In this document: piece after piece, positions 16,411 to 59,239 of the stretch | Layout of the letters: the number at the start of each line of letters is the position of its first letter | How positions within the stretch are numbered: the stretch's first letter is position 1 | NCBI GenBank assembly: GCA_963575745.1 | Contig: CAUYUJ010021059.1 | Location: 122,501 to 186,500, forward strand | DNA: 64,000 nt | Direction: 5' to 3' | Origin: Prorocentrum cordatum | Lineage: Eukaryota; Sar; Dinophyceae; Prorocentrales; Prorocentraceae | Notes under the pieces: generated by a model | What the model was told of the DNA's origin: nothing | The model's database searches: none | The model's input: the letters and a program-made list of their open reading frames with translations, nothing else | Program-made: the position numbers and the translations under genes

Positions 16411-16592
16411 GTCGACTCCTCGCAAGAGTGACCCTTCGCCGGAGTGACCTTTGGTGCGGGCTCACAAGGGTCTTCCCAACAGTGGCCTGCGTGCTTGGAT
16501 TTGCCCCCCCCCCCCCCCGCCCCCCCTGCCCCCTAAAATCGCGCCGCACCAACGGTCACTCTTGCCTAGGGTCATCCTTGCATGTGGTCGAC
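16411..16592 (+). mobile_element. Introner-like inverted-repeat element, copy A
   Basis: The left end has CGCAAGAGTGACCC followed by GGAGTGACCTTTGGTGCGGG. The right end has GCACCAACGGTCACTCTTGC then GGGTCATCCTTGC, the reverse complement of the left. GTCGAC occurs at both borders. The middle is unrelated to the other copies. Its acceptor position reads GTGG instead of GTAG. No coding sequence is evident around this copy. Confidence 0.7.
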
Positions 16593-16599
16593 GAGATGG

Positions 16600-17189
16600 C
16601 AGCAGTGTTAGGTTAAGGGCTTCCGGAACTTACCATGCAACGGCGGGTGATGACATGTGCTCGTGTACACACTCTTGTTTTATCACCTGGAAGGCAGGCT
16701 CCCCTCTCGAAAACCGCCCGCCGCCTCCTCGGATTCCTGGCCCCGGGGAGCCCCTGGTCGCCCGTGCACAGGGATCGCTGGGCCGTCCGGGTCTAGCCAT
16801 CGGGCCCAAAGCGGTCAGGTGGGCGATCAAATGGCCCTGCGAGAGAGAGGATCTTCAAGAGCCCGTCCACATGCAAAAAACATTGATTATCTGACAGTTC
16901 CTGTTTAATTTTTGGATGCTTGGTTCTGCGGTCCTTCTGGCTGTTCGAGATCGCCCAAGGGGCATCGAACATCGTCTCCAAACGACCCACAAGTGCCGGC
17001 AGACAGCCCAAGGGAGCCCCAAGACGGCCCAACAGGGCTCCCAAAGATGGCCCCAAGATGCCCCCCAAAGCATTCCAAATCGGGCCCGGTTGTTGAGGGA
17101 GGCCGTGGTTCGCAGCAAGGTGGTCCGAGGAAGCTCCCAGAGACCTCCTGAAGCCTCCAATATAACTTACAGGTTTCGTGATGCGCCCA
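16600..17189. other. No recognised gene
   Basis: Mixed sequence, with a CCCAAGACGGCCC-type degenerate repeat at about 16960-17070. No gene supported. Confidence 0.35.
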
Positions 17190-17525
17190 GTGTGTGTGTG
17201 TGTGTGTGTGTGTTTTGCATGTGTGCGTGAGAGAGAGGGAAGGGAAACAAACAAGATATCATAACGACGGCGCCGACAACGGCAACAACGAGGTATTTAT
17301 GTTTTTACCTGGTTGCCTCTCTCTCATTGCGTCCGCTGGTTGAAATTGAAGGACCGAGGTACATGGCGCCAAGCGCCAGTGCAGTCTTGACTGTAATCAC
17401 ATTTGGAGATACAGAGAGAGAGAGAGAGTGTGTGACAGAGAGAGGGGATAGATCGAGAGAAAGAGAGAGGGGGAAAGAGAGAGAGAGGGAGGGGCGAGAG
17501 AGAGGAGAGAGAGAGAGGTATATAC
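17190..17525. repeat. (TG)n and (GA)n tracts around a dispersed motif
   Basis: TG repeats at 17190-17215 and GA repeats at 17411-17520 flank one copy of the GGCGCCAAGCGCC...GCAGTCTTG motif (17352-17395), which recurs at 19090-19133 and, inverted, at 59757-59806. Confidence 0.8.
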
Positions 17526-17934
17526 ATATACACCCATACATTCACACACACATATTCTTATTCTTATATTTTTATTACCAGGGACCCCCCCCCACCCCAA
17601 TGAGGCCTCACACCCCTTGCAGTTTCCATCACCGGAACTGCGGGTGTCGAACCAAATCCCCACAAACCTGGCGCCGTACGTGCAGTGCCAGGGGCGGCGG
17701 CCCGTCTTCCCATCTTACCATCATAGGAGGATGCGAAGTCCCTGAAGACGGGACGGGGTGGGCACGAGCGGGCATCATAGCCGGCTCAAAATCAAAAGAG
17801 GCATCATAGCCTCATCAGTCTAGATTGATCCACTCACGGATCCACTGCGATTTATTTCCATTGAATTCATTCCATGCGTAGCATGCTCACCCCCCCCCTA
17901 AACCGGATCCTCCTCCAAGGGACGGCCGGGACGC
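17526..17934. other. No recognised gene
   Basis: Nothing identifiable apart from short C runs. Confidence 0.35.
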
Positions 17935-18545
17935 CCTTTCGGACGGTTCGGGGGTCCCCTGGATGCCCTTGGAAAAGGTTCGCAGGCCTTTCCGGGCCTC
18001 CCAGGGCGCATTGACAGGCCTTGCGAGCAGACTCAAGGCGATTAGAAGGGTCATCGGAGAGGCGCAAAATAGACCCAAGACAGCACACGGGCGCTTCAAG
18101 AGGCCCCCCAAACGCCCCAAAGGCTGTTCAGAGAACCCCAAAGCAGCAAAAAACGTCCAATTCCCTAGGGAAAATAAACATTTGTTGCATACCCGCTTTG
18201 TTGGCCTTTGCAGCGTCCAATTCCGGCCCGATGGGCCACCGATATCGCCCCAAGACGGCTCAAGAGGCGCCCCACATGGCTTCACGACGGCCCACGAGGG
18301 CCCCAAGACTGCCCCAGAAAGTTTCGGACTGCCCACAAAAGACCCAGACGCCCCAAAAAAGCTCCCAAGAGAGACCCAAGAAACCCACGGCAGATCCTCA
18401 GGAAGGCCTTCGGAGGCCCCCAAGAGGCCCAAAATGGCTTCCGAAGACTTCTGGAGGGACCCAGCTACCCACAACGGCCCAAGAAGGCCCCAAGACGGCC
18501 CAGGAAGGCCCCAGGACGGCCCCCCCAAAAACCGAAACACCTAAA
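17935..18545 (+). repeat. Degenerate CCCAAGACGGCCC repeat
   Basis: CAAGA-rich imperfect repeat of the same style as 5.9-7.2 kb. It contains a related spacer (about 18150-18205) that also ends in GCAG followed by CGTCC. Confidence 0.65.
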
Positions 18546-19127
18546 CGCGGTTCTCCTGCGAAGTGCATCGAGCTCACCCGACGCTCTTCGTTCCACGCTT
18601 CAGGCTCGCGGTCCCCATTCCTAGATCGAGAGAGACAGGCAAGGGATACATATTCGAATTTCCACGATCCAAGATTTCCTGAATGTCAGGGAGCGGCCAC
18701 ATCGTTCCGACCTATTGCGAGTTCTTCGGCGTGTCATGGGGAGACTCCTTACTTCCTCAACGGATGAGCTCAACACCCGGAGGAGGCGGAAGAGGAGGTA
18801 AGGAGGACATAATGGGTAGGGAGACCCCTTCGAATTGGCAGATCAACAGCCAAACGCAACTCCTCTCCATACTTCCCCCCATGACTCATGACGGGCGGAA
18901 CACACAGGAGGAGGTCAACGGGGGGAGCTAAGACATGGAACGACGATGAATAGGAAAGCATGCCTGCGCACAAGCGTGCAAGTGCATCGGACGAGGGCGG
19001 TGTCAGCAGGCGCCGGTCGCCCGTGCAGACCCTCAAGTCCCTATGCTACCACAAGCGATGATTGATTGTTTTGCCAGGGAAGCGTCTGGAACAAGGCGCA
19101 TGGCGCGAAGCGCCAATGCAGTCTTGT
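18546..19127. other. No recognised gene
   Basis: No domain or RNA gene seen. A copy of the GGCGCGAAGCGCC...GCAGTCTTG motif is at 19090-19133. Confidence 0.35.
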
Positions 19128-20335
19128 ATATATGAAAGAGCGTGTTCTACCGCTGCTGGCGGAAAACCGGGGGGGGTCACTACCGGTTCGAACCCCTCCC
19201 CCCCCCCCTCCGGAAAACCGGGGGGGGTCACTACCGGTTCGAACCCCTCCCTCCCCCCCCAAGCTCATCATGAAAAGGGGGGGGGGTCACTACCGGTTCG
19301 AACCCCCCACCCCCCCCTCGAAAACCGAGTGGGGGTGCGGACAGTGGTGGGGACGGTGTTGGTGGGGACAGTGGTGAGGGGACAGCGGGACAGTGGTGGG
19401 GACAGTGGGACAGTGGGACAGTGGTGGGGACGGTAGTGGTGGGGACAGTGGTGGGGACAATGGTGGGCACAGGGGGGACAGTGGACAGTGGTGGGGACGG
19501 TGGTGGTGGGGACAGTGGTGTGGGGACAGTGGGAATGAGGTGGAAACAGTGGGACAGTGGAGGGTACAATGGTGGTGGGGACAGTGGTAAAGGCGGTGGC
19601 GAGGACGGCGGTGGGACAATGGGACAGAGGTACAGTGGGGACAGTGGTGGGGACAGTGGTGGGGACAGTGGGGACAGTGGTGGGAACAGTGGGACAGCTC
19701 AGTGGGACAGCGGAGGAGTCAGTGGGACAGTGGGGACAGTGGGGATAGGCAGTGGTTGGGTCCGTGGAGACAGTGGGGAGAGTGGAACCGTGGTGGGAAC
19801 AGTGGTGGGAACAGTGGGGACAGTGCGACAGTGGTGGGGGCACTGGTGGGGACAATAGGGACGGTGGTGGAACCAGTGGGGACAGTGGTGGTGAGGACAG
19901 TGGTGCTGGGAACAACAGTGGGGGATGTGATGCGAGCGGTGGTAGGGACCGGGAGTCGTTTGCTGGCGGTGCGTGAGGCTGGTGTGAGTGGGGGGTGGGT
20001 GGGGAGGCGGTGGTCGAACCGGTAGTGACCCCCTCCGGTTTTCGAGGGGGGGGGGGTTCCAACGGTAGTGACCCCCGGTGTTCGAGGGGGAGGGGGGGGG
20101 GGGGGGGGGGGTTTTCGAAGGTAGTCCCCTCGGTTTTCGAGGGGGAGTGGGGGGGGGGAGGAAGGGGTTAGGGGAGGGGGGGTTTTTGCCGGGGAGGAAG
20201 GGGAGGGGCGGGGGGGGTCCAGCAGGGGGGGGGGATTTTCGGAGAGGGGGGGGAGACCCCCGGGTTCGGAAGAAAAGGTTGGCAATTTTCCACAGTAAAG
20301 CGGCGGTGGATCACGCTCTCTCGTATATATATATA
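19128..20335. mobile_element. Foldback element with inverted-repeat arms and a minisatellite core
   Basis: The outer parts 19135-19175 and 20290-20335 are inverted copies. Inside them, three left copies of a GGTCACTACCGGTTCGAACC unit (19169-19330) face inverted copies at 20010-20140. The centre (about 19335-19960) is a GTGGGGACA-type minisatellite. GGTTCGAACCC matches a pol III B-box, but I find no tRNA fold. Which process made it, and whether it moves, is unknown. Confidence 0.65.
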
Positions 20336-20561
20336 TATATATATATATGCAAATCGAGAAACAGAGAGAGAGAGAGAGACCAGAACGATCGAGCGAGAGA
20401 GAGAGAGAGAAAGGAGAGAGAGAGAGAGTGAGAGGGATACAGAGAGGGACATGTGATTTCTACATGTGTATACATATAGAGAGGGAGAGAGAGAGAGAGA
20501 GAAATATATATATCTCTATATATGGAGAGAGAGAGAGAGAGAGCGAGACAGAGAGAGGAAT

Positions 20562-20593
<32 letters not shown>

Positions 20594-20615
20594 CGAAAGA
20601 GAGAGGCAGGCCTTC
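20324..20615. repeat. (TA)n then (GA)n microsatellites
   Basis: TA repeats at 20324-20348 are followed by long imperfect GA repeats to about 20615, broken by short TATA stretches. Confidence 0.9.
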
Positions 20616-21085
20616 GGCTCAGCCCGTCGCCGTGCCTGGGGCGTGGGCCAGTGGCCTCTCTTAGATGTATCCTGGCGTCTCCAGGGAGGCTTCTCTTGGC
20701 GCCGTCTCGGAGGGCGCTGGTGGGCCTCCCAAGGGTCTCTCGGAGGGATCTCGGGGCCTCTCGGGGGCCTCTAGGGGGGCTTCTTGGGAGCCTCTTGGGG
20801 GCCTCTTGGAGTCTGCTGCGGTCTCGGCTGCCATCTTTGGGAGTCGGGCTCGAGATTTCTGTTCGAAGGCCCCTCTTGGGACCGTGCTGGGAGCTTCTGG
20901 GGCCCTCTTGGAGGTCTCGGGGGCTGTCTTGGGGCGATTTGGGGGCCTCTTTGGCCGTCATGGACGGTCTGAAGACCAAGAACCCGAGTATGTAAGCATC
21001 GTGCCAAACAGACGAACGTATTTCCAATGATTTGACCTCTTGCATTGGCCCCAGGGCTTCAAGACGGCCTATGATGCCTTCCCAA
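20616..21085. repeat. Degenerate CTTGGGGGCCTC repeat
   Basis: Reverse-orientation relative of the CAAGAG repeats. With the GA tract in front, it matches the layout and sequence of 59990-60850. Confidence 0.65.
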
Positions 21086-21104
21086 GGACGACGCCGCTCT
21101 CGCC

Positions 21105-21645
21105 TTAGCGCCGCGCACATTCATGTCAAACAGTTGCAAGAGTTTCACGGATTGAGGGCAGGTGGTTTTCAACATGTGGTTCTCGCATTAGAGCCGCGCA
21201 CATGTGTTTTAAGAACTTGCAAGAGTCTCACGGTTTGAGGGCGGGTGGTTTTCAAGATGTGGCTCTCGCATTAGCGCAGCGCACATTGTTTGTCTGTTCT
21301 TCCGAATTTGCAAGAGCTTCACGGATTGAGGGCGGTTGCTTTCACATGTGGTTCTCGCATTAGCGCCGCGCACATTCGTTTCAAACATTTGCACGAGTTT
21401 CGTTGGTTGAGGGCGGGTCGTTTTCAGGATGTGGCTCTCGCCTCAGCGCCGCGCACATTCGCTGTAAACAATTGCAAGGGCTTCACGGATTAAGGGTGGT
21501 TGCGTTTCAAAATGTGGCTCTCGCCTTGGCGCCGCTCACATTCGTTTTTATCTTTTCAGAATTTGCAAGAGCTTCACGGATTGAGGGCGGTTGCGTTTCA
21601 AAATGTGGTTCTCGCTTTAAGCGCCGCGCACATTCGTTGTAACAG
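21105..21645. repeat. Tandem repeat of about 87 bp, six to seven copies
   Basis: CGCCGCGCACATTC-type starts recur near 21109, 21193, 21276, 21364, 21450, 21530 and 21620. Each unit also has TTGCAAGAGYTTCACGG, TTGAGGGCGG and ATGTGGYTCTCGC. Copies are diverged, and spacing varies between 80 and 90. Confidence 0.85.
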
Positions 21646-21954
21646 TTTGTAATTTTCCACGTATTCCAATGATCAACGTACCAGAAATGGCGTTCTGGAA
21701 GAATTCAGGATTATGCGGGTGCAAGTCCCAAAAATGGCGCTCTGGCACGATTCCAGATCGTCAAGACGCAGCAGTCAGGTTGATACGTGGCGCTGCAATC
21801 CCGAGAACAATGCTTTGGCATGCTTCAGGATCTTCAAACGGTTGTCTTCCAACGCGGCAGTTCCCTCAATTGAAATGAACCGTTGTGGGGCCTATGAAGA
21901 GGCAGCTTGGAGGGAGGGTTAATTCCAACATCGTTGATAATTCTGAGTTTTACA
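21646..21954. other. No recognised gene
   Basis: Short unique stretch with loosely repeated AAATGGCGYTCTGG. No gene supported. Confidence 0.35.
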
Positions 21955-22414
21955 ATGGTCCTCCTCCTCCTCCTCGCTCCTCCTCCTCCTCCTTCTCCTC
22001 TTCTCTTCTTCTCCTCCTCCTCCTCCTCCTCTCCTCCTCCCCTCCTCCTCCCTCCTCCTCCTCCTCCTCCTTCCTCCTCCTCTCCTTCCTCCTCCCCCTC
22101 CTCCTCCTCTCCTCCTTCTCCTCCTCCTCTCCCCTGCTCTCCTCCTCCTCCTCCTCCTCTCCTCCTCCTCTCCTCCTCGCCTCCTCCTCCTCCTACCTCC
22201 TCCTCCCCTTCTCCTCCTCTTCTTCCTCCTTCCTCCTCCTGCTCCTCCTCTCCTCCTCTCCTCCATCTCCTCCTCCTCCTCCTTCCTCCTTCTTCTCTCC
22301 TCCTTCTCCTCCTCCTCCTCCTCCTCCTCCTTCTCCTCCTCCTCCTCCTCCTCCTCCTCCTCCTCCTCCTCCTCCTCCTCTCCTCCTCCTCCTCCTCCCC
22401 CTCCTCCTCCTTAG

Positions 22415-22556
22415 GCGAGGAGCGCCGTGGGCGAGATGGTGCCGCCCGTCCCAGGGGTTGCCCGCGGCGGGCCACGGCACCGGGACTGCCAGCCGCCCCG
22501 TGCCCGCCGGCGCGGCCCGCGACCAGGTCGCTCCTCGCCGCCCCTCGTCATCTCCG
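22415..22556 (+). repeat. Exon-like insert, copy 1
   Basis: Begins GCGAGGAGCGCCGTGGGCGA directly after CTCCTCCTCCTTAG, which looks like a pyrimidine tract plus acceptor. A 2-base deletion relative to copies 2-4 shifts the frame after GEMVPPVP. Confidence 0.7.
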
Positions 22557-22916
22557 TCTCCTCCTCCTCCTCTTCTCCGCCTCCTCGTCGCCTCGCTCCT
22601 CTCGCTCCTCCTCGCGTTCCTGCTCCACGTGCCCCTCATCCTCGCTCCTCCTCCTCTTCTCCTCTCCCCTCTGCTCCTCTCCTCTTACTCCTCCTCCTCC
22701 TCTCCTTCTCCTCTCCTCTCATCCCTCTCTTCCTCCTTTCCTCCTCCTCCTCCTCTCGCTTCTCCTCCTCTCTCCTCGCCTCCTCCTCTCTCCTCTGTCC
22801 TCTCCTCCTCCTCCTCCTTCTCCTCCTGCTCCTCCTGCTCCTCCTCCCCTCCTCCTCCTTCATCTCCTCCTCCTCCTCCTCCTCCTCCTCGTCCTCCTCC
22901 CCCTCCTCCTCCTTAG

Positions 22917-23060
22917 GCGAGGAGCGCCGTCAGCGAGATGGTGCCGCTCGTCCCTGGGGCCGCCCGCGGTGGGCCCAACGGCACCAGGATTGCCAGCCGC
23001 CCCGTGCCCGCCGGCGCGGCCCGCGAGGAGGTCGCTCCTCGCTGCCCCTCGTCATCTCCG
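22917..23060 (+). repeat. Exon-like insert, copy 2
   Basis: Same TTAG|GCGAGGAGC boundary. The plus frame reads GEMVPLVPGAARGGPNGT and continues in register with copies 3 and 4 up to PSSS. Confidence 0.7.
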
Positions 23061-23250
23061 TCTCCTCCTACTCCTCCTCCTTCTCAACTTCGCGTTCTTG
23101 CTCAACGTCGCCTCGCTCCTCCTCGCTCCCCCCTCCTCGTTCCTCCTTTCTCCTTCTCTCTCCTGCTCCTGCTCCTCCTCTCCTCCTCCTCCTCCTCCTC
23201 CCTCCTCCTCCTCCTCCTCCTCCTCCTCCTCCTCCCCCTTCTCCTCCTTA

Positions 23251-23395
23251 GGCGAGGAGCGTCGTCGGCGAGATGGTGCCGCCCGTCCCCAGGGCCGCCC
23301 GCGGCGGGCCTAACGGCACCGGGACTGCCAGCCGCCCCGTGCCCGCCGGCGCGGCCCGCGACCAGGTCGCTCCTTGCTGCCCCTCGTCATCTCCG
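23251..23395 (+). repeat. Exon-like insert, copy 3
   Basis: Same boundary and the same frame (GEMVPPVPRAARGGPNGT). Differences from copy 2 are mostly single substitutions. Confidence 0.7.
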
Positions 23396-24075
23396 TCTCC
23401 TCCTGCTCCTCCTCCTCCTCCTCCTCCTCCTCCTCCTCCTCCTCCTCCTCCTCTCCTCCTCTCCTCTCCCCCTGTTCCTCGCGTTCTTGCTCAACGTCGC
23501 CTCGCTCCTCCTCGCTCCTCCTCGCTTCTCCTCCTCCTCTCTCCTCCTCCTCCTCTCCTCTCGCCTCCTCCTTCTCCTCCTCCTCCTCCTCCTCCTCCTC
23601 CTCCCTCCTCCTCCTCCTCTCCCGTCCTCCTCCTGGTCCCTCCTTGTGGTTCCTCCTCGTTCCTCGCTTGCCCCTCCTTTTGTCCGCCTTCTGCTCCTGC
23701 TTCCTCGCGTTCTTGCTCACGTCGCCTCTCTCCTCCTCGCTTCTCCTCCGTCTCTCCTTCTCCTCCTCCTCCTCTCCTCCTCATCTTCTTGTCCTCCTCC
23801 TCCTCCCTCCTCGGTTCCTGTTCGTCCTCCTCCTCCTGCTCTGCTTCCTCCTCCTCCTCCTCCTCCTCTCCTCCTCCTCCTCCTCCTCTCCTCTCCTCTC
23901 TCCCCCTTCTCCACCCTGCCCATCCCTGTCCTCATCCTCATCCTCCACTTCTTCTCTCCTGCTCCTCCCTCCTCCTCCTCCTTCTCATCCTCCTTCTCCT
24001 CGTGCTCCTCCGCCTCCTCCTTCTCCTCCTCGTCCTCCTCCTCCTCCTCCTCCTCCTCCTCATCCCCCTCCTTAG

Positions 24076-24216
24076 GCGAGGAGCGCCGCTGGCGAGATGG
24101 TGTCGCTCGTCCCCAGGGCCGCCCGCGGCGGGCCCAACGGCACCGGGACTGCCAGCCGCCCCGTGCCCGCCGGCGCGGCCCGCGGCCAGGTCGCTCCTCG
24201 CTGCCCCTCGTCATCT
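24076..24216 (+). repeat. Exon-like insert, copy 4
   Basis: Same boundary and frame (GEMVSLVPRAARGGPNGT). Spacing to copy 3 is 825 bases, against 334 and 502 for the earlier steps, so the unit is not a simple tandem. Confidence 0.7.
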
Positions 24217-24780
24217 GCTCCTCCTCCTTCTCCTGCTTCTTCGCGTTCTTGCTCCCCGTCGCCTCGCTCCTCCTCGATTCTCCTCCTCCTCCTCCTCTCC
24301 TCTCTCCTCGCTCCTCCTCCCCTCCTCCTCCTCCTCTCCTCCTCCTCCTCATCCTCCTCCTCCTCCTCCTCCTCCTCCTCCTCCTCCTCCTCCTCCCTCT
24401 CCTCCTGCTCCTCCTCCTGCTCCTCCTCCTTCTCCTCCTCGTCCTCCTCCTCTTTCTCCCCCTCCTCCGACTGGTCCCTCCTTGTGGTTCCTCCTCGCTC
24501 CTCGCTGCCCCTCCTTTTATCCGCCTTCTCCTCCTGCTTCCACGGTTTCTCGCACCTCTTCGTTCCTCCCTTCTCCTCCTCCTCCTCCTCCTCCTCCTCC
24601 TCCTCCTGTTCTTCCTCCTCCTCTCCTCCTCCTCCTCCTCCATCCTCTTCGCTCCTCCTGCTCCTCTCCTCGCTCTTCTTCCTCCTTCTCCTCCATCTCC
24701 TCCTCTTCCTCCTCTTCCTCCTCCTCCTCCTCCTTCTCGTCCTCCTCCCCCTCCTCCTCCTTCTCCTCCTCCTATTGTTT

Positions 24781-27113
24781 TCAGACCATCGTGCACGGTC
24801 GATCGGGGTGGCTAAGTCGAGGTGATGTGAGTGAAGCGTATTTTGCTGTATTCATGTGTACGTGTCTTCACTGTTTGTACACTATTGTTTTGGGCAGTGG
24901 CAAAACAGGTTGGCTGTATCATTGCATGGAGACGTTCAGCAGTGGTAGCAGGCTGTGTTGCGGTCAGGCGCGATTCGGGTCTCAACGTCCTTTGGTGGGT
25001 GCAGCGGGCCTCACCAACTACATTGCTGGGGCTGGGGTCCGTCATCATCCGCTTCAGTGCTGGTTTCTCGCACTGTCGCGTTGGGAGTTCTATACTGTTT
25101 TCTTATGTACGTCAAGTTGGGCACAGTTTTCGTCAGCTACAATACCTGCATCTCCCATTGCCGCTTGGGGAGTGTCTCTATTTGTGTTGCTGGTGATATT
25201 CCGCAGTTTGTTTGCTGCATGTTTCAATTGCATGTGTGCATTTCTCAGTTCTTGCGTGCGTGAATGTAAGCAGTACTCTCAGGTGCTTTAGTCAGGTGGT
25301 TCGTTCCCTGTGGCCGTGCATATCGCAACGGTAATCAGGCGACTTTCGAGTACAGTTGTTCCGTGCTGTTGTATTTGGTGTTTCAACCGTGGTCAGGCGG
25401 TGCGTGGTTGCTTTCACCTGTCGGCACGGTTGTCGTTCACCTTTCAAGGTGTCTTGCATTCTGGTGGTCAACCTCCCGCGCGGAAAAGAGCCAGGGAACA
25501 TGAGGCTACCCATATACTCACAAAAGTGAAGGCCTTATCAACATTTCCGTCAATACCTTCCAAGTGGTGTATATGTGATGCGCCACGTTTTCTGCTGTTC
25601 GGTGACAATGGTATGTGTGTCACTCAAGTGGGAGGCTTTGGTTTCTCGAGTGGTCGCGCGCGGTATTCGGGATGTTTTGTTCCTCCGCTTCGCGCGCCCC
25701 GTGTTCCTTGGCGTCTGGTGCGTATTCAAGGTCGAGGGGCGTTGGTTTTCCGATATGACATCGTCATGGCGTCCAGTTCAGTCCAGTCCAGCCCTCCTCC
25801 TCCTCTTCCCCCTCCGCCTCCTCTTCCTCGTCGTCGTCCTCCTTCTCCTCCTCCTCTTCCTCCTCCTCCTCTCTCTCCCTCCCCCTCCCCATTCACCTCC
25901 GATGATCACGTGGCCGTCCAAGCTCGCCGCAGACAGAAGTCGTCGGGCCGCAGCCGGTATCCGGTGTGCCCTCTCCCCGATCGGTCCCCGCCCGCTTTCG
26001 CTCTTTCCTCTTAACCATTGTCCCCGGGGGCGGAGCTATCGCCGATGATGAGGACCCGAGGGTTTTATGTTGTTCCTCGTTCCTTTTCTTTTCTCGGCCT
26101 TTTCGCTTCAATTTTCCTCTTCACCGCTCGCTCCTCCTCAAAGGGAGCGGGAGGCTTGGGAGGGAGGGGTGCGGAGCCAGGGTGCCTCCAGGAAACATCC
26201 AGCGGTACGAGCAGCAACCAGTGACGACGCTGGGCAGACCAGTCTTCGCACCGCTCTTCTGCTTCGCGATGTCGTGCCTGGGGCGAAGCAGTCCGCGGCA
26301 GAGGAACCTGGCGAACCGCGCCCGCGCTGGGACGCTGAGGCCCTCGTCCGGGCGGTCGTCAGAGGCATCCATCCCCGTCGGCGCATTCCGCTTTGTCTTT
26401 GGGGGCGGTGGGCCCGGCGGTCGTTGGTACACCAGGGGGATCAGTCGAGCTTGTCATGCAACGTCGCGCTGATTCTCCACGGGCGAGCTGGGGGGTTCGG
26501 CGTGGTGGCTGTCAGCGGGGCTGATCCTCGTTCCCGCAATGGACGTCCCTGCATCCTGGCCTGGCAGAAGAGGCCGCGCTCTCTTCAGCCCTGCACGAGA
26601 CGCCGAACCCCCCCCTCGGCGCGCTCCGCGCGCCGGGCAGGGGGAGCCAGCGCCGACCAAAAATATCCGCGCTGGGCTCCGCAAGCTGATGTTTATGCGT
26701 TGCTTTCCTCTGCAACTGGGCCCAGCTCGGTCTCGCTAGCTGGCAGTCCTGACACGGGACATCTTGAGGCGTTCCGAGCCGGGGGGGGTGGCAGGGGGGG
26801 CGATATGTGGGGAGGTGAAGGAAGGCGCACCTTTTGTGCCCTGAAGGTGCCCCGAAGGGGCCCAAAACGATAACGAAAGGTGCACCTCTCTCCCTCCAGT
26901 TTGTAATTCAGCAACGCCCAACGTCTCGCCCCCCCCCCCCCGCCCCCCCCCCGTGATGACCCCTTTCCCCCCTTGGTGCGAAACCGCGTATGTACCTGTG
27001 CGTGCCCCGCGCGTGCACTATTCCGGCGGGCCCCAGGGGGCAGTCCTCCAGGGCGACCTTTCGGCGTGCCACCGCCACCCCCCTGCGCTGGCCCGTCTGG
27101 GTGGATGGTGCTC
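24781..27113. other. No recognised gene
   Basis: Mostly unique sequence with a CT-rich stretch at 25795-25895. I examined the longer frames (for example 25310-26014 and 26067-26873) and saw no domain, periodicity or motif to support them. Confidence 0.35.
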
Positions 27114-49220: not shown

Positions 49221-49261
<41 letters not shown>

Positions 49262-50242: not shown

Positions 50243-50280
<38 letters not shown>

Positions 50281-50340
50281 CATTATGCTGATGATGGTGA
50301 TGATGATGATGCTGTTTTGCTCCTGTTGATGGTGATGATA
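49540..50340. repeat. (GAT)n array 2
   Basis: Imperfect GAT triplets. The 62-bp direct repeat copy 2 lies inside at 50007-50070. Confidence 0.95.
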
Positions 50341-50549
50341 CTTCGGCGGGACGAATGGTATGACTATTCGAACATCTCTAATTCACGACTACAGAGGCCC
50401 AGGACCCAAGGGCCTATTTCCCGCCAGTGATAGGGGCCCGAAAAAGCTCTTCTTGATAGGATTATGCGGAGGGTGAAGGGGATGATACCCTTTTTACAAG
50501 TCCTCGGCCCATGAAGCATCAGATGAACTTTTGTCCGGCCGCTGTAAGA

Positions 50550-51132
50550 GTGAGGATCATGACGATGAGGAGGACGGGGGGAGGATGATGCTGCTGTTGG
50601 TGGTGATGATGATAACGATAATGACGGTGGCGATGATGATGGTAATGATGATGATTGCGCTGATGACGATGAAAGTGATGACTGTTGATAAGGCGTGTGA
50701 GTATGGAGAGGATCAGGACACGAATGATGATCATATAATGATCGCGGTGGTGGTGGTGATTGTGATGATGATGATGCTGATGACGATGATGATGGTAATC
50801 ATAATGATGAGGATGATGATGCTGGTGATGACGGTGATGATGCGGATGATGCTGATGCTGATGCTGATGAGGGGAATGTTGATGATGATGGTGATGATGC
50901 TGATGATGGTGATGACGATGATGACGATGATCATGATGATGATGATGCTGATGCTGCTGACGACGATGATGATGATGCTGATAATGCCGCTGCTGATGAT
51001 GGTGACGATGATGCTGCTGCTGATGATGATGCTGCTGATGATGCTGCTGCTGACGATGACGACGGGGGTGTTAATGATGAGGATGATGATGGTGATGATG
51101 ATGGTGATGATGATGATGATGATGTTGATGAT

Positions 51133-51179
<47 letters not shown>

Positions 51180-51240
51180 GGTTGTTGTTGATGATGCGGA
51201 TCAAGTTGAGGATGACTGTGGTGATGAGGATGAGGAAGAT
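50550..51240. repeat. (GAT)n array 3
   Basis: Imperfect GAT/GCT triplets for nearly 700 bases. Poly-Met, poly-Asp and poly-Ile frames here are artefacts. Confidence 0.95.
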
Positions 51241-51409
51241 GGGGGAGGGGGAGGAGGAGAAGGAGGACAGGAAGCAAGGGCTTGAGTGAAGGTTGTGCTG
51301 CGATGCGTAGGGAGCAGCAGTGGCAGTCCCTCCTGCCTCGTCTCTGCCTCTCCTCGCCCCCTCCCGCTCCCCTGCCTTCCCCAGTCCAGGAAGGCTCTAC
51401 AGGGACTTG

Positions 51410-52080
51410 GCGGGAATCGCGTCTGGAGGATGTCGAGACCTCGCCGTGAGGACCTCACCGTGGCCTCAACGTGCCCCAACGTGCGTCGCGAATTCTGGAG
51501 GGCTGAAGGGATCGCGTCGGTGGGAAGTCGAGGCCTCACCAGAAGGGGCTCAACGCGGCCCCGACATGGCTCATCGCGTTTGCGCTATTCGGGGATCTCG
51601 TCTAGGAGGCTGCTCGGGGATCTCGACTGGGACGTTGTTGACGTTCTCGCCATGAGGGCTTCGACAAAGCCTCGTCATGGGCCACCAACCCTTTAGGGAC
51701 ATCTTGGGTCACATGTGCGGGACGCGGGGGGCCCTCGCCGCGAGAGGCCCCAACGCGGCCTCCACATGACCTCAACTTGGGCCGGAAGCCATTCAGGGCT
51801 GCTCGGGATTCACGTATGTGTGGGATGCGGAGGTGTTTGCCCCGAAGACCTGAATGTGGCCTCAGCCTGTTTTGAACAGGTATCGCTAACCCATCATGAC
51901 TACCAGGGGATCGCGTACGGGGGCGGGGGCTCAGACCTTGCCTCATCATGACCTCAACATGGATCAGAACCCTTGCGGGCGATCTGGGGGCCTCGTTTAT
52001 GCGATGTCGCTGACCTGAGGGTCTCCAGCCTGGACTCGGCGCGGCTTCAACGCGGGCCAGAAGTCTCCCAGGCAGCGGCA
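51410..52080. repeat. Degenerate tandem repeat, unit roughly 100 bp
   Basis: Words such as GGGATCKCGT, CTCGCCRTGAGG, CCTCAACRTG and GCCTCRYCATG recur in the same order several times with heavy divergence. Confidence 0.5.
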
Positions 52081-52276
52081 GCATCTGAGTGACAGCTTGA
52101 GACTGGACTCGGAAGACGGCTGCATACGCAACGGAAGATGAAGAGGTCGGCGCAAGAGCAGGAGCCATATGGAGCATGTCAGCCGAGTCGGTAGGTTGTG
52201 CATGCCCCACAGGGCACAGAGTTGGAAACAACCCACCCAGACAATGTGCAAAACGTCTGGCCGCTTGGATGCGTGC

Positions 52277-52305
52277 ATGTGTGTGTGTGTGTGCGTGTGT
52301 GTGTG

Positions 52306-52352
<47 letters not shown>

Positions 52353-52380
52353 TTGTGTGTTTGTGTGTGTGTGTGTCTGT

Positions 52381-52421
<41 letters not shown>

Positions 52422-52472
52422 TGTGTCTGTGTCTGTGTCTGTATGTGTGCGCGTGTGTGTGTCTGTGTGTGT
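52277..52472. repeat. (TG)n microsatellite
   Basis: About 195 bases of TG with CG, TC and TT variants. It produces Cys/Val frames that are not genes. Confidence 0.97.
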
Positions 52473-52489
52473 ACGGGTTGGTCTGTTTG

Positions 52490-53059
52490 CGCTTCTCTCC
52501 ACTTGCTCAGCCGCTTCGCGCGGTGTTGCCGTTCCAACAGCTTGCCGCTGTATCTGTCTCATCCTGGCGCCTGCCTTGCCCCAGGTCCTCGTGTGCCTGC
52601 CGGCTTTCCCTCTCTCGGCCCGTCTGTGCGGCCCGTTATTGCACCCCGTTGCGCGCAGATCCAAGGAATCCGCGCGGACCTCCGAACGTTTATGTTTATG
52701 TTGTTCGTTGTTCGTCTATGGGTGGCGGGGAGCATTGGCAGGACGCGGACGATTCGGACGTCCGAGGTCACCCGCGAGGGGACAGCAGGGGTCGCTGCGC
52801 ATGAGCTCACGGATGCGTCAGCGTTCGTTCGCGTGCACCGCTGCCTCTTCCGACTGCAGACCTCGCTGGGCTTGCCGAGCCAAGTGCGCAGCGTGGGCCG
52901 CGCCCGCGCGGGAGCGCACTTCTTGGGACAAGAGCAGTGCGGCGCTCCCGACGAGAGCAGCATCTTGCACTCTCGCGCTGCCCCCCTGGCCGCTACCCGT
53001 GCGGAGGCGCAACCTTCCCATAACCATTTGCGCGGCCTGCGTAGAGACCAAGAGGAGAG
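52490..53059. other. No recognised gene
   Basis: GC-rich sequence without a supportable product. Confidence 0.35.
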
Positions 53060-53190
53060 GAAGGTGGAGGAGGAGGAGGCGGAGGAGGAGAAGGAGGAGG
53101 AGGAGGAAGATGAAGAGGAGGAGGAAGAGGAAGAGGAGGAGGAGGAGGAGGAGGAGGAGGAGGAGGAGGAGGAGGAGGAGGAGGGCAGAA
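53060..53190. repeat. (GGA)n tract
   Basis: GGA/GAA repeat of about 130 bases. Confidence 0.95.
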
Positions 53191-53989
53191 CCATGAGGGA
53201 GGGGGAAAGGGGGATGGAACGGACGAGGGCGGCCCGCCGCAGCAGGACCTCTGAGGAGAGGGTGGCCCACCGCTCGAAGCTGAAAGCGCACCACCACCAC
53301 CGGGCAAAGAAGGCGGGGCGCCGCAAGCCGAGCCTGGCGGGGGAGGGTCCAGGGTCCGCGACATCTTCGTGGATCTTGAGCTGTCTCCAAGCATCCGTTT
53401 GCTCGGAGCCCAAGTGCAGGCCTGGGTGGAACCACGTTTTCAGTGGTCACTGCCGTGCCAGGACGAGCTACTCACGCCTGAGGTTCTGCAGATGGCCTGG
53501 CAAGTGCAGACGAAACAGACCTTTGTCTCGGACCGTCCCTGGAGCATCGTATCGGGGAGCATTGGGGTCATGCTGCTCTCCGTCAAATGGCCTCATGTGG
53601 GCCACCTCCTCTGCTTTCTGTTTCCGTACCGACGCCGGGGATGCCTTGGGTTTTCGAACTCCCGTTCCGTCTACGATCACAGAGTTAGCCAAAGCAGCTG
53701 CCCTGCGACTGCTTCGGGTGTCTTGGGCTACTCGACCTAATCGTGCTGACGACGTATCCATGGCCCCCAACCAGCCTCTCGAGTACTGGACTGGGTCCAT
53801 CATTGTTCTCTCCAAATGGTATCAACCGGAGGATTCGGATGAGGAGGGTGGTGACGCAGGTGGTCAGGAGGAGGGAAGAAAAGTTGAGCGGCAGCGACGG
53901 GGTGCAGCGTGGACTCCTGCGGTCAATGAGGCGGCTATGCTGGGAGCCTTGCTGGGGTCATGTGGTGACCAACGCGACTTCAGTATTGC

Positions 53990-55800
53990 CACCACAAGTT
54001 GAGTGCCAAGTGTTTTGAGTGTCCGTCGGAGGATTGCAGCTCGCAGCACCTGGCGTCGACATGCCCTGGTAACAATGATACACGGCTGGCGGAGCTGGGC
54101 TCATTGGATGATCGTGGGTTGCTGCCAAAGCAAGCTGGCTCGTGGTTCTGGGGCAGAGGACTGTGCCCGAGGGGTTGCTTCCCGTCCTTGCCAAGAAAGG
54201 ATAACTCGGGAAGGTGGCCTGTCAGATGTGGCTCAGTTGGTTCTATATCAGGAGCGGTGTGCACCGACGGTGCCTGAAAGCGTTTCTGGCACTGGCCCGA
54301 GGCAGCCAGCGCAGGCTGGAAGCTTGTTAAACGCGTGGATGGGAGGATCGATGTGATGGCGTACGGAGTTCTTCCTGGATTCTTTCAATTCTCCCGGTCT
54401 TCTCCGATATTGAAGGCCTCATTGAAGGGCTCGACTGGGGCCCTCAAGGGTGCTGCCATCCTTCTGGGCCTAATGATGACCAGGTCCATCAGGTAGAAGA
54501 TCCAGGACCTTGGTGGCCTTTCAAAGGCCCTGCAGTTGATGCGCTTTAGAGGACATCCGAGGGGAGCTGACACGCATGTGAAGGGGGATCGCTGGGCAGA
54601 TGTCGCTGCGACGGCGCGACCTTCACTCCGTTCTAGTCAGCATGCCAAGTTCATACGAGGATAGCGCTCAGGTCTGTTCGGCAGGTCCTCAAGTGGCAAG
54701 TGCAGGCTTATGTGATTTTCGCTGCCCGTGGCAGAGTTGGCACGTTCCAGAGGCGCAGGCGGCAGAGGTCCAAGGCTCCTCGCCACAGCTCGGATCCGCA
54801 GCCGATCCTGGCGGCCTGGCGCCACCTGCGTATAGGCGCACGTTCTCTCAGGTTCGTGTGAAGTCTTTCTGGAGGCGTTCCTTCTGCAGCAAGGGGGCCG
54901 AGACCCAGCTTCAGGCTCAGCTCTTCTCTCGGATGGCGTGCTTTGCTCGAGCTGTGGCCGCCACGGTTGCTGCCCGTGACAATAGACGAGGGTGGTCCTC
55001 TCACCTGTTGTCCTCCGTCCGCTCTTCCCTCCCAGGGGGACGGCGGCACCTCGGGGAGTCCTGTCGAGCCTCAGAGTGGTTTTGCGGATCCGTCCGGGTT
55101 CGGGTTTGGTCTCAGGACGGCCGAGCCTTCTTCTCGTGACGCTGCCAGTTCGACTACACGTAAGAGTGACCTTTCGCCAGAGTGACCTTTGGTGCGGGCC
55201 CAATTGGGCCCCCCCGATCGCTGAATGTGATGTGATAGCAGCGCCTTGCGCGCCTGGTGGTGTCCCCACAGGGCCCCCCCTGGCCGCGGACTAACGGTCA
55301 CTCTTGCCTAGGGTCACTCTTGCGTGTAGCCGAGCAGTCGGCATGAAAGAGATCACCTGAAGCGACATCCTGATGTGCTGGTTTCTGAGGCTCTGGAGGC
55401 TCTGAGGGATGAGGGGCAGGAGCGTTCGGTCAGACCTCAGTTTCTTTCCGATCACGCAGGTTTCCACGCCTCACGCAGACGAGCTCACTCGTGCCCTAGC
55501 CCCTAGCAAGTATCAGGAGCAGGCCCTAGTGGAGGACGATCGGGAGGCCTCCCTTGGCCGCCACCACCGTCCTTGCCGCGCCGCTGCCCGCGTCTGGTAT
55601 TGTGGAACATCTCAGTGCTCGTGTCCACCGCTGGTGGGTCTCTCCTGGCCAGACCGTTCCTTGCATCATATGTGGTTTCTTCAGCACTGGAGATGCAGGG
55701 CATTTGCCTATAGATTGTGAGCTTCCGCCCACTCTCTCAGAACGGGCTGCTCGCAACCGTATGTTGTTTCTTGAGGGCTGCACCCCGCTGGCGAGGCCCG
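53990..55800 (+). pseudogene. Decayed retrotransposon 3' end with RNase H
   Basis: Pieces of a retroelement polyprotein appear in changing frames. WFWGRGLCPRG near 54150 resembles the segment before RNase H. VCTDGA (54259-54276) fits the RNase H start, and GDRWADVAATA (54584-54616) fits its end motif with GN-x-AD-x-AA spacing about 113 codons later. Further on, CIICGFFSTGDAGHLPIDC (near 55656-55712) resembles the Cys/His tail of such elements. Stops and frame changes separate these pieces, so no intact product is expected. Introner-like copy B lies inside. Family assignment is by motif only. Confidence 0.45.
55152..55334 (+). mobile_element. Introner-like inverted-repeat element, copy B
   Basis: Left end TCGACTACACGTAAGAGTGA; right end GGTCACTCTTGCGTGTAGCC, its inverted copy. 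The left end carries a good donor (C|GTAAGAG) and the right end GTGTAG. Flanks CCAGT and GCAGT suggest a 4-5 bp target duplication. Protein-like sequence lies on both sides in the same frame (GFADPSGFGFGLRTAEPSS before; HERDHLKRHPDVLVSEAL after). Confidence 0.75.
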
Positions 55801-56880
55801 TGTTAGGGGGGTCGTGTTCATCCTACCCCCCGCTCCCTTTGCCTCTGGCCCCGAGGTCGCCTGGCTTCGCTTGATGGTGGTATGGCCCCTATAGCCCAAT
55901 ATGTGCCATTCTTCTCACATGCACTTTCTGCTGGGCTGTCGTGATGGATCCGCTGCCGTGCGCGCGCGGCCCGCGCGTGCCGCGGCTGTTCATGTTCACC
56001 CGCCTGCCCGCGCCGCCGCCCAGCCTCTCCCTGTGCTGCCCGAACCCCGCCCACCCCAACGGCCGCCCGCAGACCCGCCAGAGGGATCGCGGGGGGCCCT
56101 CGTGGGACCCCTCCCCCCCCCTGCGCTCAGGTGTGCGTCGAAGCGCTTCGCGCGACGTCCCCCTCGCAGCGTCGTCTCCTGATCCTGCGCCTGCTCCCCC
56201 CCGTCCCCTTCTCCCTCGCATGATCTTGCCCCTGGCTCCTCCTGCGGCTCCTGCGTCGTCGCTGTTTCTCCGTCCCGTCCGCAGGCACATTCTGGCCCAG
56301 GCCATTTTGGCCGCTGCGGCGAGCGCTCGTGGAGAGGGCTTCCCTCGCTCGTGCCCAGGCATCCGACGATGTGATTTCTCCAATCCCAGGCCCCAGAGCT
56401 CCCGAGCCGGATCCGTTGTTTGATGGTCTTTTTGCTTTGCTGTCGGGTTTGGTCAGTACGTCGACCCTTCTAGATCCAGGGTGCCCTTGTGTCCTATGTG
56501 TTCGCGTCCAGTGTTCTCCTTTTTCCTGGGGAAGTGTGGCCCTTGTAAGGATCTTGTGTCCTCTCGCGTGTCCTCTCCAATCAAACTCGACTGTACCACT
56601 GGGGTCCCCGGCGTCGCATTTTTTCCCACTGGGCGTCCCCCCCTCGAGAAATGAGGCAGAAAGATGGGGTTCACAGTCAACATCCATTGTAAGAATGCGC
56701 TGCTTCATCAGGGCTACCCCTGCATCCCTGCTTTCTCGGCCCATGCTGAGCCGATGTTGACGTCCAAGGGGCTCCAAATGGCAAATGCGAATGCAAATGC
56801 GGCTTCAAGGGTCTTGCATCCTCACCTTGCACCCTTACTACAGATCTTGTCTGTAGGGCTCCAGGCCGTGTTTCCCCACG
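55801..56880. other. No recognised gene
   Basis: GC-rich sequence with long open frames on both strands but no motif that selects one. It may hold upstream exons of the lectin gene. Confidence 0.3.
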
Positions 56881-59239
56881 ATGCGGCACTTCTCTCGCGA
56901 CGCCGGATCTCAGGTGCTGAGCGCGCACACCGTCGTAGCTCTGGGCTCGCAGCCCCGCTCACTCCCCCGGGGCATGCAGGCGGCGCCGGAGCCCTGGGAG
57001 GGCGCCGGACCCATCTGGAGCGCGGCAGAGAGGGTGGCGAGGGAGACCCAGAGGCGCCGCGTCGAGCTCCTCCGCGCACAGGGCGCCTCCGCCGCGGGTT
57101 CTGGCGGCCGCGGCGAGGCCAGCTGCGCCGGGCAGGAGGAGGCCCTGCGCGCGCGCCCCGCGCCGCAGGAGGCGGCGAGGCGCCCCCATCGGCCACGCGC
57201 AAGAGCGACCCTTCGCTGGAGTGGCTCCTTGCGCGGGGCCCGCACGGGGTCCCGCCAGCACCTGGCTGTCGCGCTCACAGGTTGCTGGGGGGTTTGGCCT
57301 GCCCAGCGGCCCCCAGAAGCGTGGCCCTTGCCCAGGGTCGCTCAGGGTGCCACTCCTGGGAGGTTCGATTCAGCATCGCCGCTGGTCTGGTAGAGCCATG
57401 GTCGCAAGCAGGGAACCTCCAGCAGAATCCCGTGGGCTTAATCTGGGCTGTCTGGCTTTGTGGCCCCTTCATCGGGCTTGCTGTCCTTCTCGTTCTTACA
57501 AAGACCTCCGACCTCCCAGGAGTTGCCTCCGAATGTCGCTCTGCTTGCGCGTAGCCGACCTCAGCAGCCTGGCCTTCAGCAGCTGGGCCCCGCCAGGCGG
57601 CAGGAGGAGGCTCCGCGCGCGTGCCCTGCTGTCCAGGAGGCGGCGGAGCAGGCCGGCGCCGCGGCGGAGTCGGGCGCCTCTGGGCGTGCCACCTCCGGCT
57701 CGCAGGGCAGGCCCGGGTGCTCGCGGAGCACGCCGGGAGCCCCGCCGACAGCGCTGGGTTTCGTCTGCCGGAGCGCGCGCGTCTCTGCGCCACCAGGGCG
57801 TCGCCCCGACGGCCCAGGCACGCCACACTCGCCGCCGGCGCCGTGCGGGCTTCCCCAGCACGCCAGGGGCGCGCAGTCGCAGAAGACAGACCGCCTCTTC
57901 GTGGCCCCGTCTTCTTGCGCGGCGAAGCCGCACGGCGACCAGGGCTGCCCGCAGTCGGAGAGGGGGGTGGGCACATGTGGCATCAGCGAGGAGCTGGTCT
58001 TCGACGAGTCGGAGCTCGTGGGTCCCACGCGCAGCCTGGCGGAGCGTGCGGCAGCCGTCGTTCTGAGGAACCCGCTGTTGGTCGCGGCCGTGCTGGTGGC
58101 AGCAGGCCTGGCCGGGGCCGTGGCCAGCGCCCGCAGCGCCTTCTGCGATCCGGCGGGGTCCCTCGCGACGGCGAGGCACGCCATGGCAGCCGCGATTCCG
58201 CGAGTCGTGGTGCAGGGGGAAATCCAATGGGGTGGCAACCCGGACATGTGTGTGCTAGTGGAGGGCGAGCCCGCGAAAGTTGGTTATTCACTCGTTGTGC
58301 TGCCCTGTCGGGGCAAGCCCTTCGACTGGACAGCGCACGCCGTCGAGGAGAGTCTGGTCCTGAGGCCCGTGCTGTACCCCGAGCTGTGTATGGACAACCC
58401 GCACGGGTCGGTGCTGCAGCTTTGGCCTTGCTCGGAGGAGCCCGACGCGATGGAGAACATGAAGTTCGGGCTCCACGCCGCTGGCAGCGACGCGACCAGG
58501 GGCACCATCCGCCCAGCGAAGAACGCCTCGCTGTGCGTGAGCGTTCCCGCCAACCAGCAGGGCGTCCATTTAGGGGTCTGGCCCTGCGTGCAGGGCTCCC
58601 CCAGCGGCACGTTCATGTTCGTGGGCGCTGGCGGCCCTGCAAACGACACGCCACTCACCGCTGCCGGAGGCGGCGGTGACGCAGCGCCCCTTGCCGCCCA
58701 GGCCGAGGCCGAAGCCGCCGGGCTCGGGCCCAGCGTCTGGGGGGGCCGGGCTTCGGCCAGGGCGGGGCCCGAACCGGTGAAGGCCGCCCGCGCCGCGGGC
58801 GCAGAGGCCGCGGAGAGGGCCACTGCTGGCAAGGCCTGGCAAGCCAGCGAGGGCGCGCCGACAGACGCCGCGGAGGGCCAGGCCCAGGAGGACTCGGCGA
58901 CACGTGGGAGTGATCCTTTGCTGGAGTGACCTTCGGTGCGGGCCTGCAAGGCGCAAGGGTGCCTGGAAGACTTGGCCTCCCGCGGCCCGCGCCCTCCCAG
59001 AGCCGCGCGCCGAACGTCGCTCTTGCCCAGGGTCACTCTTGCGCGCGGTGTAGCCCGAGGACGCGGGGGCGGCCCAGGAGGCCAGCCGCGTCCCAGACTG
59101 GACCCAGGAGGCCGACGCTCCCCGGCTCAGGAGGCAGCGGCGCGCAGCGGCGGCAGCGGTGCAGCGGCCCGAGGCGCGCGCGGAGGCGAGACTGCGGGGG
59201 CTCGAGGCAGAGGGCGGCCAGGCCAGCACGGTCGGGTGA
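56881..59239 (+). CDS. Membrane-anchored ricin-B-type lectin, three-exon model
   Basis: Proposed exons are 56881-57179, 57555-58890 and 59060-59239, giving 604 residues in one frame. The N-terminal third is Ala/Glu/Gln/Arg-rich and probably helical. One membrane segment (about residues 268-293, NPLLVAAVLVAAGLAGAVAS) precedes a beta-trefoil (about 314-455) with the repeating VLPC, QLWPC and GVWPC pattern of ricin-B lectin domains, which bind sugars. There is no catalytic toxin domain. The layout suggests a signal-anchor protein with the lectin outside the cytosol. Both introns coincide with introner-like elements. The second exon alone is open to a TGA at 58927 supplied by the element. Start codon and further upstream exons are uncertain. 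The lectin part (57970-58700) is the firm part. Confidence 0.55.
57189..57554 (+). mobile_element. Introner-like element, copy D
   Basis: Left end TCGGCCACGCGCAAGAGCGA; right end GTCGCTCTGCTTGCGCGTAG followed by CCGA. At about 365 bases it is longer than the others, with an internal partial right end near 57330-57352. A GC donor just outside (CGAG|GCGCCC at 57180) and TAG|C at 57554 join the exons in frame. Confidence 0.65.
58894..59057 (+). mobile_element. Introner-like element, copy C
   Basis: Left end TCGGCGACACGTGGGAGTGA; right end GGGTCACTCTTGCGCGCGGT then GTAGCCCGA. GAGGAC is present at both borders (58888-58893 and 59057-59062). Splicing at AG|GA ... AG|GA (58891-59059) joins the lectin exon to a 60-codon exon in frame. 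Confidence 0.75.

Follow-up and report, generated by a model that had tools for sequence, protein, structure and literature searches.

A MITE family of Prorocentrum cordatum that is probably spliced out of exons through its target duplication

The window analysed here, 64,000 nucleotides of the genome of the red-tide dinoflagellate Prorocentrum cordatum, contains four divergent members (A, B, D and C) of one inverted-repeat element of about 184 bp, and the family to which they belong is a MITE-type transposon. Judging from sequence, it is quite likely that this is a non-autonomous cut-and-paste MITE that is spliced out by way of an AGG in its target duplication when it lies forward in an exon at AGGA or AGGC. 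We infer both the removal at the RNA level and the exact splice bases.

Four members of an abundant inverted-repeat family

The four copies claimed in the first-pass annotation of this DNA are present, with slightly shifted limits, all given here on the forward strand. Copy A (16412 to 16591, 180 bp) is flanked by CCCAG and CGAGA, which form no recognisable duplication. Copy B (55150 to 55333, 184 bp) is the nearest of the four to the family consensus and lies between CCAGT (55145 to 55149) and GCAGT (55334 to 55338). Copy D (57189 to 57558, 370 bp) lies between CCCCA (57184 to 57188) and CCTCA (57559 to 57563), and copy C (58894 to 59057, 164 bp) is located within the coding sequence of a lectin-domain gene. 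D is longer than the other copies because a second inverted-repeat element of 191 bp (57344 to 57534, no strand assigned; repeats GCCACTCCTGGGAGGT and GCAACTCCTGGGAGGT) is nested inside it, leaving 172 bp as the outer, family part. This inner element is itself flanked by GTCGCTC at 57337 to 57343 and 57535 to 57541.

The 50-nt arms of the four copies match at 34 to 39 positions. For A, B and D the alignment score exceeds that of every one of 500 shuffles, and for C it equals the best shuffle. The window holds four occurrences of the 18-mer GAGTGACCTTTGGTGCGG at up to 3 mismatches, two of them in A and one each in B and C, against an expectation of 0.06. The centres of the copies had been described as unrelated, which does not hold: each copy aligns end to end with a 184-bp consensus (identities over aligned positions of 139/162 for A, 163/183 for B, 129/155 for C and 129/162 for the outer part of D), with scores of 174 to 300 where 200 shuffles of each reached at most 110.

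A genome-wide search for the 20-base end, suggested alongside the original claim, was run with the right-end 20-mer at up to 3 mismatches and returned 14,837 matches (7276 + 7561) against 112 (60 + 52) for the reversed pattern. Full-length copies that could be aligned were found at unrelated loci, so that related copies occur at many positions. Rfam gave zero matches in the window at the gathering score. The end motif GCAAGAGTGACCCTWSGC was found in no stretch of viral contigs and in 5 stretches of bacterial contigs, which were taken as chance.

A short transposon with a 5-bp target duplication

These data bear out the original view of a transposon-like inverted-repeat family. The consensus arms align with each other over about 60 bp as terminal inverted repeats, and the element is short and present in high copy number, with no coding capacity and no transposase seen within its approximately 184 bp. 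The predicted fold of the consensus is one long hairpin (−124.6 kcal/mol).

The length of the target duplication is constant at 5 bp. In 40 elements, flank identity per position was 0.55 to 0.65 at length 5 and 0.12 to 0.40 at lengths 3, 4 and 6 to 9. Among 38 sampled copies, 18 matched at 4 or more of the 5 duplication positions (shuffled mean 1.06, maximum 5 in 2000 shuffles); the other 20 matched at 3 or fewer, as old or truncated copies would. Flanking target duplications of 4 to 5 bp had been suggested as a check; in the window they are seen as 5 bp at C (AGGAC on both sides), B and D, and none can be recognised at A. A 5-bp duplication does not by itself settle the transposon superfamily.

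Copies C and D in a lectin-domain gene

Three coding stretches on the forward strand surround D and C. The first, upstream of D (56881 to 57188), has an uncertain start and is similar at 56992 to 57141 to residues 25 to 77 of the protein P0002. The second, between D and C (57564 to 58890), encodes a lectin-domain protein (Pfam Ricin_B_lectin), and the last, after C (59060 to 59239), ends with a stop codon at 59237 to 59239. A public protein, P0001, is otherwise identical to the genome and is missing exactly C and one AGGAC. Copy C and one duplication would thus form a putative 169-nt GA-AG intron (58891 to 59059), with its candidate donor, AG|GAC, in the left duplication (58889 to 58893) and its candidate acceptor, AG|GAC, in the right (59058 to 59062). 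P0001 gives the length of the missing segment, and the exact bases within the 5-bp repeat are placed by the AG|G rule.

The frame of the lectin-domain gene is also kept when D and one of its duplications are left out. When proteins were searched for a product that extends across D, only P0002 (44%) and P0001 were returned, the latter not covering D, and no gene identical to P0002 was found in the P. cordatum assembly. The duplication of D has no AGG, and the AGG rule does not explain this copy.

A second case with a known protein

In a SulP gene on contig C1207, the deposited P. cordatum protein P0003 lacks exactly one element and one AGGAC, and is 100% identical over 100% of the query to the sequence joined at net zero. 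A protein from a transcript assembly, P0004 (EukProt, 47%), aligns through the region of this junction. P0003 is a deposited prediction.

Since P0001 and P0003 each lack exactly the element and one duplication, the junction would lie within the duplication AGGAC (AG|GAC...AG|GAC). This runs against the original proposal that the ends of the element are themselves splice sites, with a GYAAGAG donor in the left repeat and a GTAG acceptor in the right. Many copies do read GTAAGAG or GCAAGAG on the left and GTGTAG on the right, and the copies in coding sequences face forward, which speaks for such sites. In D, and only there, a junction between GCAAGAG and the first AG past the element (CCTCAG) would, by arithmetic, add 9 nt and keep the frame. 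Used as a pair, however, the end-borne sites would leave 19 nt behind and disrupt the reading frame at C, D and the C1207 copy. They are contradicted by the segments missing from P0001 and P0003, and are rejected for C and the C1207 copy. As a general account of the family we regard them as extremely improbable. In both cases for which a protein is available, the splice sites proposed by eye are not the ones used.

These two proteins could also be read without any splicing, if the element were an ordinary MITE, P0001 derived from an insertion-free allele, P0003 reflected gene-prediction software, and the coding cases were polymorphic insertions. P0001 comes from a 1703-bp contig that could be genomic DNA of a strain lacking C; a genomic origin is compatible with its start codon and length. 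The published annotation pipeline was altered to accept GA donors (PMC10666404) and could have bridged a stop codon unaided. On the other side, the authors of the genome report that introns are enriched in inverted-repeat introners, and the coding copies described below all face forward, carry AGG on the sense strand and restore the frame at net zero only, for which an accident at the DNA level gives no reason. We consider an unspliced MITE unlikely.

Coding-frame survey of other copies

A two-sided coding test was applied to 58 distinct copies chosen for AGGA, AGGC or AGGT flanks, with thresholds that were set once the first clear cases were known. In six of the 58, an apparent coding frame on the AGG strand is interrupted and kept at net zero; at +1 and at +2 there are none. 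In all six the left and right duplications are identical, and the borders fit AG|GA or AG|GC, these being copies selected for AGG. None of 35 unselected copies passed the same test, a difference from the selected set that is only suggestive (0.053) and a result that lends some weight to the reading without splicing. The antisense controls were not empty, with one locus at net 0 and one at +1; both loci pass in sense as well. An earlier, untuned count of open frames around 43 elements gave no clear excess at net zero (39 versus 31 and 36).

Domain matches extend across the junction at two of the six loci. At L086, an S1 domain match (residues 12 to 77) spans the junction at residue 69, and at L089 a match to the light-harvesting protein PCPI-12 (residues 89 to 195) spans the junction at residue 101, the right border having been shifted by one base to fit the duplication. 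Pfam searches of L111, L113 and L120 gave no convincing match, and the right end of L113 is poor (15/22). In a broader Pfam search of 134 open frames around the first loci, 11 families were found at E ≤ 0.01, each with one member, among them GOST_TM (4.4e-10). When 20 of the 134 frames were scanned one by one, a topoisomerase frame could be assigned to L047, the single unselected copy placed in a recognisable gene, where it apparently lies within a larger intron.

Exact coincidence of an element with a missing segment is thus seen for P0003 and P0001, and the 6 of 58 loci are supported by coding frame. The introner reading of the first-pass annotation survives in part: coding copies are apparently removed as introns (C, the C1207 copy with its protein, and five further frame cases), but the data support neither end-borne splice sites nor an intron at every landing. 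That reading was to fall if copies lay almost only in intergenic DNA. This is partly the case, as none of the 35 unselected copies passed the coding test and L047 appears to sit inside a larger intron.

Orientation relative to the gene

By alignment with the consensus, all six coding-frame copies are forward relative to the gene, and C and D are forward as well, so that all eight copies seen in coding sequences face the same way. Of the other AGG copies with at least 4 of 5 duplication positions matching, 13 are forward and 16 reverse; with the margins fixed, the contrast with the six coding-frame copies has a probability of 0.017. An earlier assignment by a two-letter mark had placed coding copies in both orientations and was wrong. 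The bias slightly raises our confidence in splicing and lowers that in an unspliced MITE, and it is consistent with an effect on RNA. Because the coding copies are all forward, the element would contribute something besides the target, though not the splice sites considered above.

Orientation also bears on whether the hairpin and direct repeat, rather than AG|G, set the site of excision, as for nonconventional introns in euglenids and non-canonical ones in Amoebophrya. Introns with a hairpin and direct repeats are described in Amoebophrya (PMC7789003) and in euglenids (PMC6221363, PMC4770533); the consensus here folds into one long hairpin, and D keeps the frame when removed with one duplication that has no AGG. 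Yet a hairpin with such nearly palindromic arms would not by itself favor either orientation, and the six coding-frame copies, though selected for AGG, all fit AG|GA or AG|GC. The comparison with the nonconventional introns of Euglenozoa, which have no conserved borders and ends paired by RNA structure, sets a predicted hairpin and the AGG-less D beside these six borders, and we assign structure-guided excision a very small probability.

Proposed mechanism

In our preferred reading, removal through an AGG-containing duplication, the element would be a non-autonomous cut-and-paste DNA transposon, a MITE of about 184 bp with near-palindromic arms of about 60 bp that makes a 5-bp duplication and is presumably mobilised by a transposase from elsewhere. 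Where a copy inserts into exonic AGGA or AGGC, the duplicated target would leave AG|GA (or AG|GC) on the left of the element and AG|G on its right. GA, GC and GT donors are all tolerated by the host, whose acceptors are mostly AGG, so the element with one duplication would be removed, restoring the mRNA with nothing gained or lost. The element would carry neither splice site and yet must face forward. It probably supplies an orientation-dependent aid, perhaps a branch point or a pyrimidine-rich 3′ half, and its hairpin could bring the two duplications together.

Relation to known introners

The published donors of P. cordatum introns are 24.7% GT, 51.4% GC and 23.8% GA, with AGG acceptors at 79.7% (PMC10666404). 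Passages of the same paper report an enrichment of introns with inverted repeats of 8 to 20 nt and direct repeats of 3 to 5 nt within 30 bases of their ends; these introner elements are from the same species but were found by a generic pattern, and the passages do not name a family, give a consensus or copy number, or state how splicing works. Introner families are described whose two splice sites derive, in full or in part, from the target-site duplication (TSD) or adjoining exon (Gozashti et al. 2022, PMC9860276); they share non-autonomous DNA-transposon features and mostly zero net change in mRNA length. Those of Symbiodinium microadriaticum have 4-bp TSDs, terminal inverted repeats and a 5′ site from the TSD (PMC9860276), whereas the P. 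cordatum family, compared by description, has a 5-bp duplication that would serve for both sites, the donor being GA or GC. Large-scale gain of introns from transposable elements is likewise described for Polarella and other dinoflagellates (PMC11453091), with 12,253 such introns in Polarella glacialis and 15 families of at least 100 (Roy et al. 2023, as cited there). Amoebophrya introner elements (PMC7789003) also have inverted repeats capable of forming hairpins and direct repeats of 3 to 5 nt overlapping the exon borders; they differ in having non-canonical borders and no family-specific repeats, where P. cordatum has one recognisable family with borders that fit the GA/GC-AG introns of the host. 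A search of literature listings, with Roy et al. 2023 covered through that review, showed no description of the 184-bp family.

Implications for dinoflagellate introns

It is possible, as a tentative proposal, that this transposon acts as an introner because its host tolerates GA and GC donors. A forward copy would bring the orientation-dependent splicing aid and the hairpin, and at any exonic AGGA, AGGC or AGGT the duplication would suffice to create donor and acceptor. A large part of the GA-donor introns of P. cordatum (24%) might then be fossils of short target duplications left by this family and others like it, and not modified GT introns.

With a family defined by sequence, the birth of an intron can be traced base by base. 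In non-coding DNA the element is found in both orientations and at arbitrary targets of 5 bp, and the copies found in coding sequences are all forward and mostly at AGGA or AGGC (D excepted). Because of this contrast, it can be tested directly how the unusual GA and GC donors of dinoflagellates arose, and the family separates a transposon that carries splice sites from one whose target duplication provides them, with the rest coming from the transposon.

A diverged family of inverted-repeat elements

All 4 copies of the inverted-repeat element reported by the first-pass annotation are present in the window: A (16412–16591), B (55150–55333), D (57189–57558), and C (58894–59057). Their centers had been described as unrelated, but each copy aligns along its full length with a 184-bp consensus, built from 43 aligned rows, with some palindromic copies represented on both strands. 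Median pairwise identity among these rows is 71% of positions, showing the copies to be well diverged. The inverted arms of the consensus align over approximately 60 bp, and the element RNA would be predicted to fold into a single long hairpin. The consensus left repeat is GTAAGAG and the right repeat, reversed, is GCAAGAG; single copies vary.

A search of the genome (4,128,499,153 bp, 21,875 contigs) for a 20-nt segment of the right end, allowing up to 3 mismatches, returned 14,837 matches versus 112 for the reversed pattern, bearing out the suggestion of a family. Four loci (L027, L034, L035, and L053) have the same ends in longer or tandem/nested arrangements of 336 to 688 bp and are candidates for larger relatives. 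Three similar segments approximately 40 kb apart on contig C392 (L017, L018, and L019) carry the same insertion and left flank, apparently through segmental duplication after the insertion. Identical flanks occur on 2 contigs for L002 and L032, L070 and L100, and L067 and L098; to judge by sequence, these pairs are either haplotypes or duplicates of recent origin within the assembly, and could serve to look for insertion polymorphism. An element of another sort occupies 9442–14445 (+): a long open frame that matches reverse transcriptase (RVT_1) and, weakly and slightly below cut-off, a C2H2 zinc finger. It is a retroelement, to all appearance of the non-LTR type.

The suggested target duplications of 4 to 5 bp were examined in 40 full elements from the window and from a general sample of 48 loci, which followed contig order among the exact right-end matches listed. 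Flank identity appeared only at a length of 5 bp. With duplicate loci removed, 4 or 5 positions match in 18 of 38 elements; re-paired flanks (2000 trials) gave a mean of 1.06 such elements and a maximum of 5.

Copies C and D in a lectin-domain gene

The open reading frame interrupted by C has a product bearing a ricin-type beta-trefoil lectin domain. A protein search found P0001 (source jgi, 1703-bp contig), whose whole sequence occurs without mismatch in the translation when C and one AGGAC duplication are omitted, and this places the junction inside AGGAC. The natural reading would be AG/GAC...AG/GAC (slashes, splice sites), a GA-AG intron of 169 nt at 58891–59059. The source contig of P0001 would be either cDNA or an allele without C. 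Donor and acceptor sites within the element ends, as first proposed, would at C retain 19 nt and shift the frame. Diverged relatives of the gene occur elsewhere in the genome (L055 to L058, contigs C15150 and C19389), with runs of N inside L055 and L056.

The lectin-domain gene also contains copy D, 5′ of C, and the reading frame is intact when D and one duplication copy are omitted. P0002, a relative, matches coding stretches on either side of D; no gene identical to P0002 was found in this assembly, and the protein search found no identical protein covering D. Since the duplication at D (CCCCA/CCTCA) lacks AGG, D would be spliced otherwise, be guided by the hairpin, or not be spliced; one example of an alternative splice, GCAAGAG to CCTCAG, would by arithmetic leave a net +9 nt. 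D is longer than the other copies because nested inside it is a different inverted-repeat element, 191 bp long (57344–57534) and flanked by the 7-bp repeat GTCGCTC, possibly representing another introner family.

Coding sequence around AGG-flanked copies

Genome-wide, AGGNN with an exact outer end immediately after it gave 167 matches versus 0 for the reversed control. We fetched 60 of 100 listed places (167 in total), all with AGGA, AGGC, or AGGT and none with AGGG; 2 repeat others, leaving 58 distinct copies. Our coding test required both sides to be coding in one frame with the element and one duplication omitted, at 120 nt open on each side plus GC bias at the third codon position. Under these thresholds, which were set only once L070, L086, and further loci were known, 6 of 58 copies passed on the AGG strand at net zero (L070, L086, L089, L111, L113, and L120), and none passed with one or two bases added. 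On the opposite strand L111 passed at net zero and L120 at +1, both of which also pass in sense. None of 35 unselected elements passed on either strand in any frame (6/58 versus 0/35, one-sided probability 0.053, the samples being drawn by different patterns). Within the window, C passed at net zero only, and A, B, and D did not pass the two-sided test.

The duplications are identical on both sides in all 6 passing copies: AGGAC in L070, AGGAG in L086 and L113, AGGAA in L089 (right border shifted one base to fit) and L120, and AGGCA in L111. GCAAGAG stands on the left in 3 of the 6.

One host gene, L070/L080, encodes a SulP-type transporter (Sulfate_transp 1.1e-10, STAS 8.2e-7). P0003, a deposited P. 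cordatum protein, is 100% identical to the entire query of 540 residues, in which the two sides were joined at net zero; its deposited gene model therefore omits exactly the element and one duplication. A EukProt transcript-assembly protein, P0004, aligns through the junction region with small gaps. L086 encodes an S1-domain protein (residues 12–77, 22.5 bits versus a cut-off of 22) with its junction at residue 69, within the domain match. L089 encodes a light-harvesting protein (2.4e-17, residues 110–200, downstream of the junction), and its match to PCPI-12 (residues 89–195) spans the junction at 101. The coding status of L111, L113, and L120 is based on codon bias alone. At L047 (1182–2586), a family element begins approximately 120 bp past a DNA topoisomerase exon (PF00521) and apparently lies within a larger intron.

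Orientation relative to the gene

Alignment with the consensus shows that all 6 coding copies, and C and D as well, face forward with respect to the gene. The remaining AGG-flanked copies whose duplications agree at 4 or more of 5 bases comprise 13 forward and 16 reverse. Copies were not selected for orientation, and the probability of 6/6 forward is 0.017 given the margins. A bias relative to the gene strand points to an effect on RNA, with the element contributing a feature that is active in a single direction. The 3′ half of the element has a slightly higher pyrimidine fraction forward (0.59) than reversed (0.50), measured over 80 nt of the consensus, which is at most a weak hint.

A proposed mechanism and its place among introners

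According to PMC10666404, P. cordatum intron donors are GT (24.7%), GC (51.4%), and GA (23.8%), and AGG makes up 79.7% of acceptors. Given the host machinery, a 5-bp duplication with AG followed by GA, GC, or GT would by itself provide a donor to the left of the element and an acceptor to its right; splicing at these sites would restore the original sequence. The element itself would need to carry no splice site, but the orientation bias indicates that it probably contributes an aid. We infer that element removal occurs at the RNA level.

Inverted repeats close to intron ends have already been reported in P. cordatum, with no families given in the same passages (PMC10666404). A literature search, with the key dinoflagellate paper outside its scope, found no description of the approximately 184-bp family. 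Among known introners are transposons that take both splice sites from the target duplication (PMC9860276), and the P. cordatum element would belong with them.
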